Positions 4,014 to 57,857 of a stretch of DNA of 64,000 nt are shown in pieces. Position numbers and translations under genes: made by a program. The notes beneath the pieces are model-generated. The model was not told where the DNA came from. It did no database searches and saw only the letters and a program-made list of their open reading frames with translations. The stretch comes from Zygnema cylindricum. Taxonomy: Eukaryota; Streptophyta; Zygnematophyceae; Zygnematales; Zygnemataceae. Each line of letters opens with the position of its first letter. The stretch's first letter is position 1. The stretch spans positions 402,020-466,019 of the forward strand of contig JBBHKE010002445.1 of assembly GCA_037447655.1 (NCBI GenBank). The letters are read 5' to 3'.

Positions 4014-4026
4014 AAAATAAGGGGAG
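4014..4026 (+). promoter_or_regulatory. Polypurine tract of copia element 1
   Basis: A 13-base all-purine run apart from one T (AAAATAAGGGGAG) lies directly between the last RNase H stop codon and the TG that opens the 3' LTR. Its position and composition are those of a plus-strand priming polypurine tract. Confidence 0.75.
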
Positions 4027-5068
4027 TGTTGAAATTTATAGATTTCTAGAGTATTTTCTAGGTTTAAATATGTTAATATAAAAGGAAAAGAAAAAGACAG
4101 GCAGCCTGCCTCCACCTCCTCTCTCTAGCCCTATACTTGTTGTAGTTACTGAAGGATAGAGAGGGAGGTTGATCCATGGCTGCCTTAGTTCAAACAGGCA
4201 GTTATTTTTAGTAGGTTACTAAAAATACACCCGACGTACCCGAGATTTGATCCCGGTACCTGCGTCTTGTCAAGTTTGTCGATAGCGGTCAACTTTATCC
4301 TATTAGACTAGGACCAATGCTAAATGCTATAGTATGTGATAGATATATATATATATATTTAGGGAGGAACAAATCCATTTAACTAAAACTGTATATGGCA
4401 TGCTTAGATACAGTTTTATAAAAAGTACGAAGTACGGTACTATTTCAAAACGGATACCACGCATTTTTCTGACAGCGAAACAAATGTCGCGCAAGTATTT
4501 ATAACGGCTAAGATTACATCTCGCTGCAAATCCAAAGGCGCACATCATCGCCGAAATCACGGAGTGGTCACTTTGGCGTTTTGTGACGTCGCATGACCTA
4601 GAGCCACGTGGAGGGATGACATTCGGTCATGAGAATTCCGAGGAATGTACGGACGAGTGAAATGTAGACACGTGTCCGCTAAATAGCCTTGTCGTACATA
4701 GGTCATACAAAAGGTACACCGACATTAGTACTTTTTGGTACGGTACAGTAATCTGATTGGTCCGTACTTCAGTAGATAGAAGTTATTAGAGGGAATCAAG
4801 ACTTAGAAACTTTTTGGTAGGTAGTCACCTCTCCCTTTGAGAGTTTGTACAAATTGGCATTTTTACTGCCTCATAACTTATTGGCTGGTTGGCCGTTTTC
4901 ATTGATTCTTTTTGCCACGGACTCAAGGGAGTCCAGGCTGCATAGGGGTACAGTCAAACTGTCATTTTGCCTTCCTGGACAGCAATGGTTGTGGCTTGAA
5001 GTGGGTTAGTTAAATACTATCGAGAGGCTTCTTATATTCTGTGGTCCAATAGAGGACATAGAATTGCA
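4027..5068 (+). repeat. 3' LTR of copia element 1 (LTR A)
   Basis: This is a 1,042-bp LTR opening TGTTGAAATT and closing GAATTGCA. It aligns along its length with LTR B at 6857-7906. Homology stops exactly at the terminal CA, after which the two copies have unrelated sequence. The TATA box intact in LTR B (TATAAAT) is changed here to TACAAAT near 4848, so this LTR has probably lost promoter function. The last 20 bases correspond to the gag start region of this family, and the ATG is ATA in this copy. Confidence 0.92.
4219..4315 (-). other. tRNA-like module, antisense, inside copia LTR A
   Basis: On the minus strand the LTR contains an A-box-like stretch (TAGTCTAATAGGATAAAG, near 4292-4309). 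About 45 bases later comes a T-arm that can pair over 5 bp around an ATCAAAT loop (4240-4256), followed by a TTTTT run near 4221. These are the marks of a tRNA-derived Pol III unit; the A box looks closest by eye to the tRNA-Arg class. No acceptor stem can be drawn, so it is not a working tRNA. The same module is in LTR B. Confidence 0.5.
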
Positions 5069-5640: not shown

Positions 5641-5929
5641 TTTTTTGCTTGCTAGAATGGCGACATTTCTAAGAGAAAGTCAAAGTGGAGGAATGTGTCC
5701 AAATACTCATAGTCTAGCTTTGCATTCTGAGGGGGAGCTGAGCACACAAAAAGTCTTCTATCAGAATGATGATGTTGTATTGGAGTTATGAGTGTTAGGG
5801 TGTCTGTCATTTGGGATTTTTTGGAACAGACTGCGATTTTGTGTCCTTCATTGGACTACAGAATTCAGGAAGCCTTTAGATAGATTTTAGCTAGCACACT
5901 TTCAGCCACAACCAATGCTGCCCAAGAGG

Positions 5930-6856: not shown

Positions 6857-7051
6857 TGTTGAAATTTATAGATTTCTAGAGTATTTTCTAGGTTTAAATA
6901 TGTTTTTATAAAAGGAAAAAGAAAAGGACGGACAGCCTGCCTCCACCTCCGCTCTCTAGCCCCCATACTTGCTGTAGTCACTGAAGGAAAGAGAGAGAGG
7001 TTGATCCATGGCTGCCTTAGTTCAACAGACAACTATTTTTAGTAGGTTACT

Positions 7052-7145
7052 AAAAATATACTTGACGGACCAGAGATTTGATCTCGGTACCTGCGGTTCG
7101 TCAAATCGACCGGTAGCGGTCAGCTTTATCCTAATAGACTAGGAC
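7052..7145 (-). other. tRNA-like module, antisense, inside copia LTR B
   Basis: This is the counterpart of the module at 4219-4315. It has an A-box-like block near 7121-7145 on the minus strand, a T-arm-like hairpin around 7070-7087, and TTTTT near 7052 as a possible Pol III stop. It differs from the LTR A copy by scattered substitutions but keeps the pairing of the T-arm. Confidence 0.48.
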
Positions 7146-7685
7146 CAGTGCTAAGTGCTATGGTATGTGATAGATATATATTTAGTTCGAAGGGATAAAG
7201 TTCATTTAACCAAAACTGTTTACGGCGTACATATATACAGTTTTATAAAGTACGTCGTACGACGCTAATTCAAAACGGATACCACGCATTTTATTTCTAC
7301 ATCGGAACAAATATCGCGCAAGTATTTATTCCGGCCAAGATTACGTTTTGCATATAATCCAACGGCGCACATCATCGCCGAAATCCCGGAGTGGTCATTT
7401 CGGCATTTAGTTACGTGGCATGACTTGGCGCCACGTGGGAAGACATCATTCGGTCGCGGGAATTCCGAGGAACGTACGGACGAGTGGAAAGTGGACACGC
7501 GTCCACTTAATGGCCTTGTCGTACAGAGGCCGTACACAAAGTACATCGGCAGTAGTACTTTCTAGTACTATACAGTTTTGTGATTGGTTCGTACAGGCAG
7601 TAGATAGGAGCTGTGAGAGGGAATTAGGAAAAACTAGGACTTAGGAAAATTTAGGTAGATAGTCCTCTCTCTCTCAGAGAGTTTG

Positions 7686-7692
7686 TATAAAT
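7686..7692 (+). promoter_or_regulatory. LTR B TATA box
   Basis: TATAAAT sits behind a CTCTCTCTCTCAG tract. The same position is TATAAAT in the LTR scraps at 5546 and (minus strand) 6046, but mutated in LTR A. It is the probable Pol II promoter of the copia family. Confidence 0.65.
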
Positions 7693-7886
7693 TGGCATCT
7701 TTGCCACCCTATAACTTATCACCTGGTTGGCCGTTTTCAGTGATTCTTTTTTCTACGGACTCAGGGGAGTCCAGGCTACACAGGGGTGCAGTCAAATTGT
7801 CAGTTTTCCTTCTTGGGCAGCAGTGGTTGTGGCTTAAAGTGGGTTAGTTAAATACTATCTAGAGGCTTCCTGTATTATGTGGTCGA

Positions 7887-10028
7887 ATGGAGGACACAGA
7901 ATTGCAGGTTATGGGCCCACCCTCTAGGGTGCCCACCTTCAATGGATCTGGGTTCATCTATTGGGAAGCCATGATGATGGGAGCTTTGTGTGAAAAACGA
8001 TACTGGGGTATCGTCAATGGACAAGTGAAACGTCCACCTTCAGGAACTCCACCAGGATTTGGGGGAGTAAGGTTTCCTGCAACAACGGTTGCCTCGGCGG
8101 AGGAGGCAGATGATGGGGACAGGAGTGTGTCCGAAAAGGGGAAAGGGACGGAGACACCCCTTACTCCTATTGCCACAGTATCGGGAGCGGCAATCGTGAA
8201 GACCGTGGAGAACGATACTCAAATGTGGGAGGATGTAAACATGGCTGCCAAGAACTTCATTCTGAGGCACCTCACTCAAGGTTTGGCCACTCCTCATCTT
8301 CACATTTACAAGGCCGAGGAGTTGTGGGTGAGTTTGGTGGAAATTTATAGAGCTGGAACTATTCAGGAGCTCCAGTTGGCTGAGCAAAAGCTATTGAGTT
8401 ACACTTACAAAGGAGGAAAGATGTTAGATTACTGTAATGATCTTTCTTGTTTGTATACAGAAATGGAAAGTGCCGGGTGGATAGGTACAATGAAAATGAA
8501 AGTTAACACCCTTATCATGAAATTACCAAATGAGTTCGAAAATTTAGTGTACCGAGTACAGGGAATGCCTGATAGTTCATGGAAATGGAACACAGTAGTC
8601 AGGATGATACTTGTGCAGGAAAACACAATGGAGATTAGGAGAGGAGGAAAGAGCATTCAAGCTCTAGCAGTAGGAGGGGACCGATGGGGAAAGGACCCGA
8701 AGAAACCTTATAGAGGGGAAAGAGATCATTCAGGGGGACAAAGGCCCCCAAAGGGTCTTTGTCATTTTTGCAAAAAGCCGGGGCACTTTATTGCAGATTG
8801 TGTCAAGCTATCAGAGCTGAGGCTCCAAGAGAACCGTGGAGGGGGTTCTTCCGGAGGGAAGAAAAAGGCACTTGTGGTTACAAAGGTGTCAGGAGAAACC
8901 GAGGATGAGTCCTCTGAGGAGGATGGGGAGCTTCTTCTTGACGAGAGTTTGGAGGAGAAGGAGATTCGTCGGAGGCAGAAGTGTGCCCTTGGAGCCATCC
9001 GGGAAGCTCCACAGGAAGGATGGATCATCGACTCAGGTGCATCCATGCATATGTGTCGTGATAAAGAACTCTTCACTAAGTTAAGAAAGATTCCTACTGT
9101 AGAGATAGAGTATGGGGATGGGAGAGTGGTTACTACAGATCTAGTGGGATCAGTAGATCTGAAAGTCTTAGTGGAGGGTAAGACTTCTATACTTACATTC
9201 TCAGATGTACTTTACATTCCACAGCTGAGTAAAAACCTTGTCTCTACGTCTGTGTTAGATGACAAAGAGTTTGATACCTTCACCAGAAAGGGAGTGACAC
9301 CTTATGAGAGATGGGTTGGAAGGAAACCAGATATCTCACACCTTAAAGTATTTGGTAGCCAAGTTTACAGTCTTGACACGGATAGGAAAAACTGGAAACT
9401 AGATGCTAAGGGAAAACCTGGATACTTTGTGGGATATGATGAGGATGTTAAGGGATATAGAGTCTATGACTTAGCAAAGAAAGATATCATTGTGGTCAAA
9501 CACTTAGTTGTCATGGATGAAGGGAAGTCATTTGACCCCTTCAAATATACAAAGAAGATAAGGATCAGATTTGAGTCCGAAAGTGAGGAGAACTCAGTCG
9601 TTCCCGAAAAAGACATGAGTGAAACTGTGATTACAGATTCAGGGGAGATCGAAGATACAGGAGACTCACCGGAAACCTCACATACTCCTATGGACTTCGA
9701 GGAGATGGAAGAAGCGGGACAAGATACGGTTTTTATGGACAGGGGAGCCGATGAGACAGTGAGAAGAAATCCAAGACTTCCATCCATTCCAGCTTCGGAG
9801 TTTGAGGGAGGAAGGAGGAGCAGCAAAAGGATACAGGAAAAACAAGCTGCACATAAGGTAACTAAGCTATCTCACCCAGATGAGCCTCAGTCTTACTTGG
9901 AGGAAGTGAATAGTCCCGAGAAAGAAAGATGGATTAGAGCCATAAATGATGAGATGGCTTCTATAATGGAAGCAAATACTTGGGAACTAGCGGATTGTCC
10001 TCCAGAACAGAAAACCTATTGGGTGTAA
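7887..10028 (+). CDS. Copia gag-protease-partial integrase ORF with internal deletion (element 2)
   Basis: This is a 713-residue open frame. Gag occupies about residues 1-250, with a CCHC knuckle (CHFCKKPGHFIADC) near residue 293. A protease-type IDSGASMHM follows near residue 382. Then, abruptly, comes the post-core integrase region (TPYERWVGRKPD), a Lys/Glu-rich linker, and the start of reverse transcriptase. Against element 1 an in-frame 762-bp segment is missing between two AAAGGGAGT copies; it removed the GAG-pre-integrase region, the integrase zinc finger and the DDE core. The frame closes at 10,028 because of a one-base insertion in the stretch ahead of GAAAACCTATTGGGTG relative to element 1. 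The start at 7887 is the conserved ATG inside the LTR. It cannot integrate by itself, but Gag and protease look intact and could package or act in trans. Confidence 0.85.
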   Translation: MEDTELQVMGPPSRVPTFNGSGFIYWEAMMMGALCEKRYWGIVNGQVKRPPSGTPPGFGGVRFPATTVASAEEADDGDRSVSEKGKGTETPLTPIATVSGAAIVKTVENDTQMWEDVNMAAKNFILRHLTQGLATPHLHIYKAEELWVSLVEIYRAGTIQELQLAEQKLLSYTYKGGKMLDYCNDLSCLYTEMESAGWIGTMKMKVNTLIMKLPNEFENLVYRVQGMPDSSWKWNTVVRMILVQENTMEIRRGGKSIQALAVGGDRWGKDPKKPYRGERDHSGGQRPPKGLCHFCKKPGHFIADCVKLSELRLQENRGGGSSGGKKKALVVTKVSGETEDESSEEDGELLLDESLEEKEIRRRQKCALGAIREAPQEGWIIDSGASMHMCRDKELFTKLRKIPTVEIEYGDGRVVTTDLVGSVDLKVLVEGKTSILTFSDVLYIPQLSKNLVSTSVLDDKEFDTFTRKGVTPYERWVGRKPDISHLKVFGSQVYSLDTDRKNWKLDAKGKPGYFVGYDEDVKGYRVYDLAKKDIIVVKHLVVMDEGKSFDPFKYTKKIRIRFESESEENSVVPEKDMSETVITDSGEIEDTGDSPETSHTPMDFEEMEEAGQDTVFMDRGADETVRRNPRLPSIPASEFEGGRRSSKRIQEKQAAHKVTKLSHPDEPQSYLEEVNSPEKERWIRAINDEMASIMEANTWELADCPPEQKTYWV
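7907..7921 (+). promoter_or_regulatory. Primer-binding site for a half tRNA (initiator Met anticodon arm)
   Basis: The 15 bases directly after the LTR, GGTTATGGGCCCACC, are the exact reverse complement of the anticodon stem-loop region of plant initiator tRNA-Met as I remember that tRNA (GGTGGGCCCATAACC). Drosophila copia and yeast Ty5 prime from this internal tRNA region rather than from the CCA end. No TGG-type site for a tRNA 3' end follows the LTR. The site is also gag coding sequence (codons for Val-Met-Gly-Pro). The antisense relative has 14 of the 15 bases at 25,596-25,610, and element 3 has the first 11 at 16,828-16,838. Confidence 0.8.
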
Positions 10029-12006: not shown

Positions 12007-12132
12007 CAGGGGTGCAGTCAAATTGTCAGTTTGCCTTCTTGGGCAGCAGTGGTTGTGGCTTAAAGTGGGTTAGTTAAATACTATCTAGAGGCTTCCTGTA
12101 TTCTGTGGTCTAATGGAGGACACAGAATTGCA
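12007..12132 (+). repeat. 126-bp copia LTR 3'-end fragment inside gypsy pol
   Basis: These 126 bases match 7781-7906, the 3' end of copia LTR B, with only three substitutions. They stop at the exact LTR-terminal CA. They lie between the gypsy protease linker and the start of reverse transcriptase (PPFRDAEHV), replacing a short piece of gypsy coding sequence. The copia gag ATG and six codons are included. No target duplication is visible. Confidence 0.9.
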
Positions 12133-15863: not shown

Positions 15864-15875
15864 TGGTATCAGAGC
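15864..15875 (+). promoter_or_regulatory. Gypsy primer-binding site, initiator tRNA-Met 3' end
   Basis: TGGTATCAGAGC, two bases after the LTR, is the standard plant LTR-retrotransposon primer site complementary to the 3' acceptor end of initiator tRNA-Met. It contrasts with the internal-tRNA site used by the copia elements in the same window. Confidence 0.88.
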
Positions 15876-16810: not shown

Positions 16811-17596
16811 GTGGTTGTAGAACAACAGGTTATGGGCCTGTCATCAAGAATTCCTATCTTTTCCGGGGATAAGTATGTTTACTGGGCGGATATGGTGGAA
16901 ACACATTTTGAAAATGTCAATCTTTTGGATATATTCGATGGTTCGCTGGATGAATCTGATCCGTCATGGTCTAAGAAAAATACGCAAGCTCGTTCTATTC
17001 TGAAATTTTGTATATCTGAGGACTTAGCTATGTCTCGGATAAAAATGAAAAAAGCAATTGATATCTGGAAATCTCTTAAGAGTGATTATGAAAAGGCCAA
17101 TGTCCAAGAAGGGCTTCTATTGGCTGGAAAAATTTGGGACTATAAGTACACTGGCGGTACAATGGCTGAATATTCTAACAAATTTCGTATCTTTGTAGAT
17201 GCACATGCTTGTGCAGGTGGGGTGTTTCCTCCTTTTCAACAGGCGGCATTGCTCATGAGGGGTCTCCCTCGTAGTATGAAAGGAGCATCTGACATGCTCA
17301 AACAGAAAGATAAAGCTAGCTGGACTTTACAGTTAGCCATCAATATTTTACTAGAGGAGGAAGCTACATCTAATATTCTCAATGTTGGGCGAGTAGAGGC
17401 TTTTACTTCAGACTTTGAGAGAAAAGGACAGTTTAATCAGCAAAGGAATCAGTTTAATCAGTTCAGACATTTTAATCAAAGTGGAAATAGACAATCCAAC
17501 AATGCATGCTTTTATTGTAGTGAGAGAGGTCATGGATACAAATTTTGTCCTAAGCTTAAAAAAGCTAACGATACACTTTTATACCGGCCGGGGTGA
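16811..17596 (+). CDS. Copia gag of element 3 (different subfamily)
   Basis: This frame of about 261 residues is a UBN2-type copia Gag. It opens with QQVMGLSSRIPIFSGDKYVYW, has the FQQAALLMRGLP and KASWTLQLAINILLEEE helices, an Asn/Gln/Phe-rich linker, and a CCHC knuckle (CFYCSERGHGYKFC) near residue 234. The frame is open upstream to a stop at 16,757 but has no ATG before the Met in the primer-site segment, so the true start is uncertain. Its primer-site-like GGTTATGGGCC overlaps the N-terminal codons, as in element 2. Confidence 0.78.
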   Translation: MVVEQQVMGLSSRIPIFSGDKYVYWADMVETHFENVNLLDIFDGSLDESDPSWSKKNTQARSILKFCISEDLAMSRIKMKKAIDIWKSLKSDYEKANVQEGLLLAGKIWDYKYTGGTMAEYSNKFRIFVDAHACAGGVFPPFQQAALLMRGLPRSMKGASDMLKQKDKASWTLQLAINILLEEEATSNILNVGRVEAFTSDFERKGQFNQQRNQFNQFRHFNQSGNRQSNNACFYCSERGHGYKFCPKLKKANDTLLYRPG

Positions 17597-24745: not shown

Positions 24746-25610
24746 TCGGTCCGGACTTATCAGACTGATTTTTTTGTCTATCCCTTTATACCCTCGAAAT
24801 GGTTTCCTCGGATCCTTGTTTCTCTAATCGGTCTCGACTGCTAAGACTTGTCCGTTCTTTCCTCCGCTTCGGATCTTTATCGTATTATCTAGAACGAGAA
24901 TCATCCCTACCACAAAGTTCTTGGTCCACCTGGAATCTGGTAGATCTTGTACGCGGTTTACTATATTCTCATAATTATCGTGTAACTTCATGAGTAGACA
25001 GTTAACCTTCATCTTTTCCGTTTCTACTTGTCTATCACTCTCTTACTCTATAAAAAGTGTCACAAGCTCATTACACAAATCTAGCATTTTCCCTCCTTTG
25101 AATTCATAAGCATCAATTTTCTAATCTACCAGCTGTTGTTGCTCAATTGTACCACTTTAGTACAGTTCTATAAATGCCACCTAAAAGTCGGATGCCTTTT
25201 CTACTTCCAAATGAGGAGATGCAAGCCCTTGAGTGAGATGGCGGAGGATGAAGTGCTTTGGCGCCATATTATTATAGTCCCATGTGTCAATATCATTCTC
25301 CTCGTTCCTTCGAATAGGTGACATGAATGCTGACCCAGTTGCTATCGAAGTGATTATCTCTTTTTCTTTCTTTTTTTCCATCTCAATGCTTTCCCCATCC
25401 TTACTCTCCTGCAGTGGAGCTAGATCTGCATTTTTGGTAAACCAAGTCCTAGCAAACCCTGGAGGAATGTCCAAGCTGGATGGACCCCACACTCGACCAC
25501 TTACTATCCCCCAAAATCTTTTCTCGCACAGAGCTCCTGTCATCATAATCTCCCAAAATATGAAGCAAGTTTCGTTAAATATGGGCACCCTAGAGGGTGG
25601 GCCGATAACC
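24746..25610 (-). pseudogene. Antisense copia gag
   Basis: On the minus strand gag starts at an ATG near 25,630 (MATTKLQVIGPPSRVPIFN), inside or at the end of the LTR. It continues through ALCEKRFWGIVSGRV, MAPKHFILRHLTQGL (to about 25,181) and, after stops, MKVNCLLMKLHDNYENIV and KDPRKPFRGYKG before the insertion at 24,741. Part of the knuckle region and all downstream parts lie beyond the insertion at 19.6-20.6 kb. The primer-site-like segment is at 25,596-25,610 with one mismatch. Confidence 0.86.
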
Positions 25611-54640: not shown

Positions 54641-54744
54641 ATAATGTGGGAAAGTTCCCGAAGGACAAAATATCCCCCCTCGGAAGCGATAGTAGCAATG
54701 GTATCTCTAATCGTGTCGTGCTCCCCCCCGTGGGAGCGAATACA

Positions 54745-55738
54745 ACGCTTCCGATAAATGCAAAATTTAGAGATGAGTCATGGATTGTTATTGAAAGAGG
54801 AGTGATTCTTTTGAGGCCTTTTATGGTGGCTCAAAGAGTTTTGGAAAGAGAAAGTTATGTCACATTGAGTTGAGTTTCTATTATTATTAACTCACTTATT
54901 AAGGGTTTGAAGAACGTGGTTCATGACACCTCAATTGAAAATGATACCTCGATTGAAAATGATAGGAATTCGGCAATACTTAATTGCATCCGCAATGGTT
55001 TCAGATTTTGAAACCCGATTTCGCACTCTTGAGCTTGCGACTCTTCCAGGAAAATGTTTATCGCTTCATCATCCTAAGGCAAAACAACTTGCATTTTTGT
55101 CTTTTTTAATTTAGAATAATGTTTGGCAAGAAACACTATATGTTTTGTTGGAAAAGTTTGACGCGGAGGTGCTAAGTTCTCAACTTTCATACGTTGGTGC
55201 CGACGGTGGAATTTTGGAAAGTGAAAAATACGTCCATCGTGAAATGGGTGGCTCCTGCGAATGAAGATGATGATAATATATTCTCGACGTTAAAAACATA
55301 TTTACCGATGTCTTCGACGTCCAAAATTGAAGGTCCTCCTACAAATTCTGATCATGACCTCATTCGAGATGATTTCAAGAACCACTTGCTCCATGAAATC
55401 CAACTCTTCAAATGGCGTCAAACTTGAGAGCATTGCGTGTATGAGCTCGGGAACCTTTTAAAATGGTGGGCCAAATAATGTCACTTTTTTTCCGGCAATA
55501 AGCAATTTAGCTCGAATAGTTTTAGCTATACTCGCTACTTCGGCTCCTTCGGAGCGGGTATTTTCAGTTGCCGGTCAAATTGGAACGGCGAAACGGAACC
55601 GGTTTTGTCTGGAGTCCGTTGAAAATCTTGTTTTTCTACAAGGATCTTGAAAAGCGAGCGAGTCCCTCATAAATGTTCGTGATGAAAAAGGGAAGGCGAT
55701 TGCAAAGGAAAGAAGTAAAAATGTACTTAAAAAAAAAA
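54745..55738 (+). pseudogene. hAT transposase fragment, sense arm of inverted repeat
   Basis: This is a frame-broken copy of the second half of the hAT transposase found on the minus strand just downstream. It has INAKFRDESWIVIERG, RPFMVAQRVL, then the hAT C-terminal dimerisation region LARIVLAILATSAPSERVFS with AGQI and KRNR. It carries many stops. It is the mirror of 55,755-56,815, with about 100 bp missing near the hinge. Confidence 0.82.
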
Positions 55739-55754
55739 TTACCACTAAATTTTT

Positions 55755-57857
55755 TTTTTTTTTATGTACATTTCCACCAATCTCCAAGTACTTTTCCCGA
55801 TTCCCTTGGTCGTTTTCCACTACGAAATACCTTATTTCCCGCATTATCATCGTTACTTATTTCCCTTGCAATCGCCTTCCTTCTTTCATCACGAATATTT
55901 ATGAGGGACTCGGTCGCTTTCCAAGATATTTTTAGAAAAACCAGAATTTCAACGGACTCCGGACGAAGTCGGTTCCGTTTCACCGTTGCAATTTGACCGG
56001 TAACTGAAAATACCTGTTCCGAAGGAGCCGAAGTAGCGAGTATAGCTAAAACTATTCGAGCTAAAGAGCTCAATGCCGAAAAAATGTGACATTTTCCGGC
56101 ACACCATTTCAAAGGGTTCTCGGGCTCATTCACGGAATGCTCTAAAAATTTGACGCCCTTTAAAGAGCTCGATTTCATGAAGCAAGTGGTCCTATAACTC
56201 ATTTCGAATGAGGTCATGATCAGAATTTGTAGGAGGACCTTCCATTCCGGACGTCGAAAACATCAGTATATCTATTTTTAACGTCAAGAAAATATCATCA
56301 TTATTTTCATTCTCGAAGCCACCCAATTCACGATAGACGTATTTTCACTTTCCAAAATTTCACTTTCGGCACCAACCTTTGAAGGTTGAGAACTTAGCAC
56401 CTCCGCGTCAAACTTTTCCAACAAGACATAGAGTATTTCTTGCCAAACTTTATCTTGTTTTAAAAGAGACAAAAATGCAAGTTGTTTCGCTTTAAGATCC
56501 AATGCTGAAGCAATAAACATTTTTATGGAAAGAGTCGCAAGCTCAAGAGTGTCGAATTGGGTTTCAAAATCGGAAACCATTGCGGATTTAATTAAGTGAA
56601 TTGCCGAATTCCTATCATTTTCAATTGAGGTGTCATGAACCACTTTCTTCAAACCCTTAAGAGGTGAGTTAATAAAAATAGGAACCCAACTCAATGTGAC
56701 ATAACTTTCTCTTTTCAAAACTCTTTGAGCCACCATAAAAGGCCTCAAAAGAGTCACTTCTCTTTCAATAACAATCCATGACTCATCGCTAAATTTTGCA
56801 TCTATCGGAATTGCTGTATTCATCAAAGCACATAATGGTTCTTTCAAATATAAAATTGAAGCAAGCATAGAATAAGTAGACCACCACCAAGTTGCTACAT
56901 CAAGCACCAAGGACTCCACTTAATTCCTAATTGATTGGTAAAACTTTTGAGTATGTCATTTGCTCACGGGGAGCTCCTAAAAAACCCAACTAGATTCTTG
57001 ACAGTTTTCATGTGTGCTAACACACCTGGACCTGCAAAGAATTTCCCCGTGACCAACTCTAAGAGGTGGTCAACACACCTGTGCCAATCACTCGACATAG
57101 CTTTACCCGCATTTTTCATGGTAGCCGCAGTGTCAGTCACACAAACTGCCACCGCACTTTCAAAAATGTTGTACCTTGCCAGCATGTCCTTAAATTTTTC
57201 TGTTATGGCTTCTGCTGTATGACTCTCGGGAAAGGGGAACCCCCTCAGCATACATTTAAGAGATCCCATTCTAAATTGATGAAATGGGCAGTTATTGAAC
57301 AGTAAGACTCATTAGACATTGAAGTTCATGTGTCTAGAGTTACACTAAGGGTCTTCCTTCAACTAATTTTGCTAAACTTAAATGAACCCTCCACGCTCGT
57401 TGCCACACTTAGCGGTTGCTAATCCAAAACTATCCAACGAATAAACTTGTCTTTAAAGGAGCCGGCAACTTATGTTTAAAAGAGCTGGCAGGTCCCTTAT
57501 TGACGAAGTCCTCGAGTGCTCCTGGTTTCTCTTCAATCTCTTTCAGTTTCTCGGCTGCAAATAGAATTTTGTGTTTATGCTTCAGGTGAGACTAAATTTG
57601 AAAGGCTCAGTGATTTCCCTCTAGCCACAGGCGTGATTACAAAATGCCTTATCTGAATGCCTGCCATCGTGCAACACCTTAAAATGCTGCCATACTTTTG
57701 ATACTGCTCCTTTCGGAATGCCTTTTTTAGAATGTTTGCATTCCTACTTATTTTTTTGTAAGTTCTCTAATTCTTTGACATTTTGAATATTTTCTACCTC
57801 CTTATCAAAAATCTGTGTCCCATCCTCCTCTCCTCCTACAATTTGTTGATAATCCAT
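55755..57857 (-). pseudogene. hAT-superfamily transposase pseudogene
   Basis: Read on the minus strand from an ATG at about 57,857: a BED-type zinc finger region (SKVWQHFKV...FCNHACG, near 57,650), a broken stretch, then a 101-residue frame with the catalytic-type VCVTDTAATMKNAG and the CVDHLLELV motif. A 211-residue frame follows (WWWSTYSMLASILYLKEPL, DESWIVIEREVTLLRPF), then the hAT C-terminal domain (LARIVLAILATSAPSEQVFS...KRNRLRPESVEILVFLK). At least three frame breaks and several stops make it inactive. I could not find element termini. It lies between the BAP31-like gene and the NPH3-WD40 gene. Confidence 0.86.

Follow-up and report, generated by a model that had tools for sequence, protein, structure and literature searches.

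A highly amplified plant Ty1/copia family, copies of which lie in the window (the whole 64-kb stretch of DNA analyzed here), is very probably primed by the 5′ half of initiator tRNA-Met (tRNA-iMet), and misdirected strand transfers appear to have left chimeras of LTR and tRNA sequence in the genome. The site, its border with the LTR, its match to the tRNA of the host, its abundance, and the chimeric sequences are all observed on the DNA. The family is a newly found case of the half-tRNA-Met copia priming already published for plants, with the use of the primer read here from the DNA.

The sequence GGTTATGGGCCCACC is located at 7907–7921, directly 3′ of an LTR with a terminal CA, and has no mismatches to the expected site (Table 1). 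The first-pass annotation had ended the LTR with CA at 7906 and put the 15-base site next to it, and this was confirmed, since other LTR copies share the same end. LTR copies in the window end at 5068, 7906, and 12132 on the forward strand and at 5832 on the reverse strand. A related copy outside the window, E2 (C46), has a GATTC target duplication, which fixes the border between LTR and site with zero gap; the 3′ LTR of this copy ends with TA, not CA. Thus, the LTR copies and the E2 duplication place the border directly before the site.

Table 1. Positions of the copia element and its neighbors in the window, and tRNA parts of the LTR–tRNA chimeras.
Feature	Position or locus	Strand	Remarks
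5′ LTR, copia element (TGTTGAAATT...GAATTGCA; TGTTG...TTGCA)	6857..7906	+	82% match to 4026-5068
In-frame ATG in last 20 nt of LTR; possible gag start	7887..7889	+	ORF 7863-10028
Primer-binding site	7907..7921	+	complement of tRNA-iMet linear nt 25-39
ATG within primer-binding site, gag frame	7911..7913	+	pairs with tRNA anticodon CAU
Open frame across LTR end and site	7863..10028	+	Retrotran_gag_2, Pol_BBD, SH3 domains
3′ LTR of related upstream copy	4027..5068	+	polypurine tract AATAAGGGGAG directly before
LTR 3′-end fragment, same family, 126 bp	12007..12132	+	97.6% to 7781-7906
Primer site of third copy	25596..25610	-	14/15 match
Primer site, second copia family	16828..16842	+	11 Watson-Crick matches, 3 G.U-pairable changes, 1 match
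Conventional tRNA-iMet 3′-end type site TGGTATCAGAGC	15864..15875	+	two bases after ...TTACA (...TTACATA)
tRNA part 39 nt	L058, L059
tRNA part 32 nt	L060, L070
tRNA part 28-29 nt	L061-L065, L068, L069, L071, L072, L074		10/18 events
tRNA part 26-27 nt	L066, L067, L073
tRNA part 23 nt	L075, L076
tRNA part 21 nt	L077, L078

The Ty1/copia assignment follows from both domains and structure. The Pfam domains Retrotran_gag_2, Pol_BBD, SH3_retrovirus, and rve are spread over several window copies and do not occur together in one intact copy, and the structural features are LTRs of the form TG...CA, the polypurine tract, and a 5-bp target duplication (GATTC in E2). Decay is evident in the copy at 7907, which has lost its integrase part and in which the RT is cut at about 10358, where gypsy-type sequence follows. 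Its open frame does not contain the integrase-core stretch present in the copy at 1–2893, and the zinc knuckle in this frame is weak, below the Pfam cut-off. The LTR fragment at 12007–12132 also lies within gypsy-type sequence, without the remainder of its LTR.

The query for the host tRNA was a plant tRNA-iMet, and the target was the assembly from which the window comes (352,776,454 bases). There were 12 matches in the whole assembly. Six distinct loci are predicted as tRNA-Met by ARAGORN, each with the exact complement of the site, and they have three types of 5′ end, ATCAGAG, ATCAAAG, and ATCGGAG. Hence, the exact match to the anticodon arm of initiator tRNA-Met, which had been claimed earlier, holds for the host's own tRNA-iMet genes. 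Since ARAGORN places the anticodon at 33 in most predictions, linear nt 25–39 of the site correspond to canonical 26–40. Canonical nt 40 of tRNA-iMet is the hemivirus priming position, according to the accessible text of the source (PMC1181622). A search of the 64-kb window itself for tRNA genes and Rfam families gave no match.

Two further sites in the window, which had been noted as matching at 14 of 15 and at 11 bases, were found at 25596–25610 on the reverse strand and at 16828–16842. At the latter, the first 11 bases match and there are 3 mismatches in 15. All three differences can form U.G or G.U pairs, which leaves the tRNA able to pair over the full 15 positions. In this second copia family (16828–16842, and L028 at 9763–9777), GGTTATGGGCC is kept, and positions 12–14 of the site are T/G/T or T/T/T. 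These changes are mostly wobble-pairable, and the gag there has Leu, not Pro.

Shuffling gave a mean of 0.55 such sites, and 4 of 100 shuffles gave three or more, so the window count by itself is only modestly unusual. The reality of the site is settled by its position and its count in the genome. In the 352.8-Mb assembly, the exact 15-mer is found 5,974 times, compared with 6 for the reversed control; when up to two mismatches are allowed, the numbers are 12,945 and 123. These counts contain the few tRNA genes. For the conventional site TGGTATCAGAGCC, the exact 13-mer gave 103 places in the assembly, compared with 1 for the control, a count that is too low for conventional sites because the sequence varies with the isodecoder, and the conventional site in the window ends with ...GCT. 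The half-tRNA site is far commoner than the single conventional form searched. The element with the conventional site at 15864 is likely gypsy, as judged from adjacent gypsy-type pieces. Another conventional tRNA-iMet 3′-end site, TGGTATCGGAGCCAG, follows ...CTAACA in L011 (1601–1615) and fits the ATCGGAG isodecoder. From these two sites, both uses of tRNA-iMet seem to coexist.

Is the site conserved as a primer site or as code? In 36 distinct copies with the exact site, the two bases before it are CA in 31, TA in 3, and CT in 2, and base 16 after the border is either C (25 copies) or A (11 copies). An in-frame ATG upstream in the LTR, with the frame open through the site, is found in 28 of the 36. 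Because the gag frame is open from the LTR ATG, translation may start in the LTR and the site may be read as code, and because the site is inside the gag frame, coding constraint acts on it too. The 15 bases might then be conserved mainly as gag code (V-M-G-P-P, the gag N-terminus), with the tRNA match incidental, and VMG(P/L)xSR does recur across families. The 36 copies are conditioned on the exact site, whereas a gag-anchored set (264 kb) was chosen independently of it; of the 17 sites in this set, 11 are exact, and one, three, and five mismatches are found in 2 sites each. In 14 gag1-type rows of this set, synonymous third positions within the site, those of Gly and Pro, vary in 0 of 28 cases, but in 11 of 40 just behind the site (Fisher p = 0.002, with relatedness ignored). 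This invariance, the exact match to the host tRNA, the roughly 20 places at which the match extends into the tRNA past the 15 bases, and the junctions of LTR with tRNA nt 1–39 all argue against conservation as code, which we consider very improbable as the main explanation.

The extended matches are the second line of evidence for half-tRNA priming. Three of the 12 tRNA matches are short (nt 1–39, 1–39, and 8–39), and in each of them nt 39 abuts LTR or LTR-like sequence. When a 25-mer was searched and up to 3 mismatches were allowed, 31 places were found, compared with 1 for the control: 9 are genes or gene-like, and the other 22 were all inspected. The latter are preceded by CA (16), TA (3), or neither (3). 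The upstream side of 11 of the 22 aligns to within 2 bases of the LTR|site border of another copy, and that of L060 aligns to its own LTR copies; the upstream sides of L068 and L078 resemble each other only. No upstream relative was found among the copies compared for L062, L069, L074, and L079, of which L062 and L069 are also exact-18-mer chimeras. Three places on C1208 are near-copies of one event, as are two on C37. With these merged and L079 left out as doubtful, 18 distinct chimera events remain of the 22 places. At about 20 places, an LTR or LTR-like end is followed by a match that is longer than 15 nt and reaches further into the 5′ half of tRNA-iMet.

The tRNA parts, several of which have one or two mismatches, end at nt 1 in two chimeras and at nt 8 in two, while nt 12/11 is the commonest end; lengths such as 29 may include one base that matches by chance. 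Since the 25-mer search is biased to matches of at least 25 nt, a plain exact 18-mer was searched as well. It gave 19 places, compared with 0 for the control: 7 tRNA genes or gene-like sequences, 10 chimeras, and 2 short and doubtful places. The latter, L038 (C23) and L081 (C2520), match over only 18 and 19 nt, look like ordinary or unclear sites, and were rejected as chimeras. The ten chimeras have tRNA parts of 21, 21, 28, 28, 28, 28, 32, 32, 39, and 39 nt; the probability that ten uniform ends over 18–39 fall on no more than four values is 0.0002. Furthermore, nt 1–39 of L058 and L059 agree at every base with the gene for the ATCGGAG isodecoder in L052.

The joints behind the tRNA parts are of several kinds, and at some of them a few bases are common to both sides. 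In L058, 39 nt of tRNA stand in place of 37 nt of the element, with the joint at GAT, after which gag resumes; in L059, late gag resumes behind the tRNA part. The L058 element is integrated, with two LTRs of 1,236 bp that are 96.0% identical and a polypurine tract, and its flanks, AGCTG and AGCCG, are a target duplication at 4 of 5 bases. The tRNA part is followed by forward internal pieces in L063, L071, L072, and L075/L076, by a piece of forward LTR in L077, and by LTR or pol pieces in inverted orientation in L061, L065–L067, and L070. In L073 and L078, the sequence behind it belongs to another repeat family (L011 type). Directly behind L062, L068, L069, L074, and L079, there was no match among the sequences compared. 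L065–L067 (C1208:14654–16996) contain three junctions of LTR, tRNA (26–28 nt), and inverted RT at a spacing of about 1,024 bp, apparently a local tandem of a single aberrant junction. Head-to-head LTRs at or near the copied half-tRNA are seen in L060 (C1109), L061 (C1564), and L070 (C1940), possibly from cDNA self-integration or end joining.

Could the RNA instead prime itself by folding back (GGGC..ACCC TCTA GGGTGCCC), with no tRNA used? A hairpin over part of the site is predicted, with −13.9 kcal/mol for 7907–7945. Its 3′ arm varies between copies, and fold-back cannot yield tRNA nt 1–24 behind the site, so the half-tRNA chimeras contradict it. On these two grounds, we rejected fold-back priming and give it almost no chance.

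In the mechanism that we propose, reverse transcription would start at the 3′ end of the 5′ half of tRNA-iMet (linear nt 1–39, canonical 1–40), the anticodon arm of which would anneal to the 15 bases that adjoin the 5′ LTR. Part of the half-tRNA would subsequently be copied into plus-strand strong-stop DNA, with a usual stop near linear nt 25 (canonical 26), and the resulting 15 nt or so would usually be retained as the next site. Copying may sometimes continue as far as nt 12, 8, or 1. The extra 3′ tail would then have no complement on the minus strand at the usual position, and the second-strand transfer could stray at short shared bases. If the chimeras are such failed second-strand transfers after primer copying, the primer is the 39-nt 5′ half-tRNA. 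These enzymatic steps, the mode of tRNA cleavage, and the present-day use of the same primer are what we infer from the observations above.

The primer might instead be full-length or nicked tRNA-iMet with its anticodon arm annealed, either cut in place at nt 39/40 or with the 3′ half still paired through the acceptor stem. The ends at nt 8 (32 nt; L060 and L070, two events only) fall on the acceptor-stem border, as if nt 1–7 were still paired in some primers, but in L058 and L059 the copy extends all the way to nt 1. The timing of the cut is unreadable from the genome. We regard a full-length or nicked primer as unlikely and prefer the free 5′ half.

Eukaryotic tRNA-iMet is methylated at canonical positions 26, 10, and 9. 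We suggest, tentatively and with more doubt than conviction, that the LTR–tRNA junctions are a fossil record of the primer, in which RT stops at about nt 25 normally and then at nt 19, 12/11, 8, and 1, and that they could record tRNA modifications or the fold of the half-tRNA at transposition. In HIV-1, tRNA modifications halt plus-strand strong-stop DNA after 18 nt, as stated in the available part of the report (PMC13191261). The main stop in the chimeras, nt 12, is one base earlier than predicted from position 10, and the proposed model leaves nt 12/11 as the commonest end unexplained. The chimeras raise the question of why the enzyme stops on the tRNA at nt 25 and at nt 12. We also considered the tRNA-Gly insertions in HIV as a parallel and rejected it, because the available text describes another tRNA and another mechanism (PMC12220202).

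If the junctions are such a fossil record, the primer identity of any half-tRNA element could be read from assemblies alone. The chimeras are a second, independent line beside complementarity, as they allow both ends of the primer (5′ at nt 1, 3′ at nt 39) and its isodecoder to be read from the genome. Any assembly can be searched in this way, so that every proposed half-tRNA lineage could be tested.

How does the family compare with known systems? Ty1 of yeast (genus Pseudovirus), like this family, belongs to the Copia superfamily, and its gag frame likewise begins in the LTR and continues through the primer site. Ty1 is said not to inherit primer sequence, and the interest of the LTR–tRNA chimeras is that they are inherited accidents. 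Kikuchi reportedly found in 1986 that the primer of Drosophila copia is 39 nt long; the gag of that element starts further downstream than the primer site, whereas here gag starts in or before the site, and the host is a plant. Two members of the genus Hemivirus, copia of Drosophila and Ty5 of yeast, use canonical nt 40 in the anticodon stem-loop of tRNA-iMet, as this family would, in the portion of the source available (PMC1181622). According to the accessible text of another paper, Ty1, unlike this family, primes from the native 3′ end of the tRNA, and the tRNA cut for Ty5 is ascribed to host RNase P (PMC5371799). Bianca (half-tRNA-Ile) and the fungal Helenus TRIMs (anticodon-loop sites) are described, in the text available, with a 3′-truncated tRNA primer as here, but they differ in the tRNA or in being another, non-autonomous element type.

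The first-pass annotation had proposed that this plant lineage hosts a hemivirus-type copia family. The half-tRNA-Met site stands, with the host tRNA match, the abundance, and the chimeras, whereas its novelty was overstated, because half-tRNA-Met sites have been published for copia lineages of plants (Osser, Bryco, and some of Gymco-II), as far as the accessible text goes (Neumann 2019, PMC6317226). In that text, half-tRNA sites occur in about 2% of the plant elements analyzed, and the priming was assigned by sequence complementarity at the site. These lineages and the present family are both copia-type, with the half-tRNA-Met site and mostly 5-bp target duplications (PMC6317226). What makes the family interesting is its inherited primer junctions: tRNA–LTR chimeras are seen in this family, whereas none are mentioned for Bryco, Osser, or Gymco-II in the available portion of that paper, and a weak literature search, largely of titles, found no published reports of genomic half-tRNA|LTR junctions.

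The RT tree does not track primer type, according to the part of the source at hand (PMC1181622). The RT piece of L013 matched 2,530 proteins at E ≤ 1e-10, and the best 120 of the 2,530 bear PF07727. A tree of 35 rows was made from 4 own RT pieces and 31 of the best 120 matches, with no labeled Bryco or half-tRNA row among them. The 4 own pieces group in a single clade (100/100). Their nearest neighbors in the tree (support 93/89) are unnamed proteins from metagenome and protist databases, and the named angiosperm rows are elsewhere in the tree.

Elsewhere in the window, an NPH3 gene is located at about 60 kb, which suggests that the host is a streptophyte; a protein search with a WD40 gene turned up a single unnamed relative. 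Nested inverted-repeat arms, 86–93% complementary with gaps of 124–1,666 bp, are found at 54738–56821, near ORFs of unknown type.
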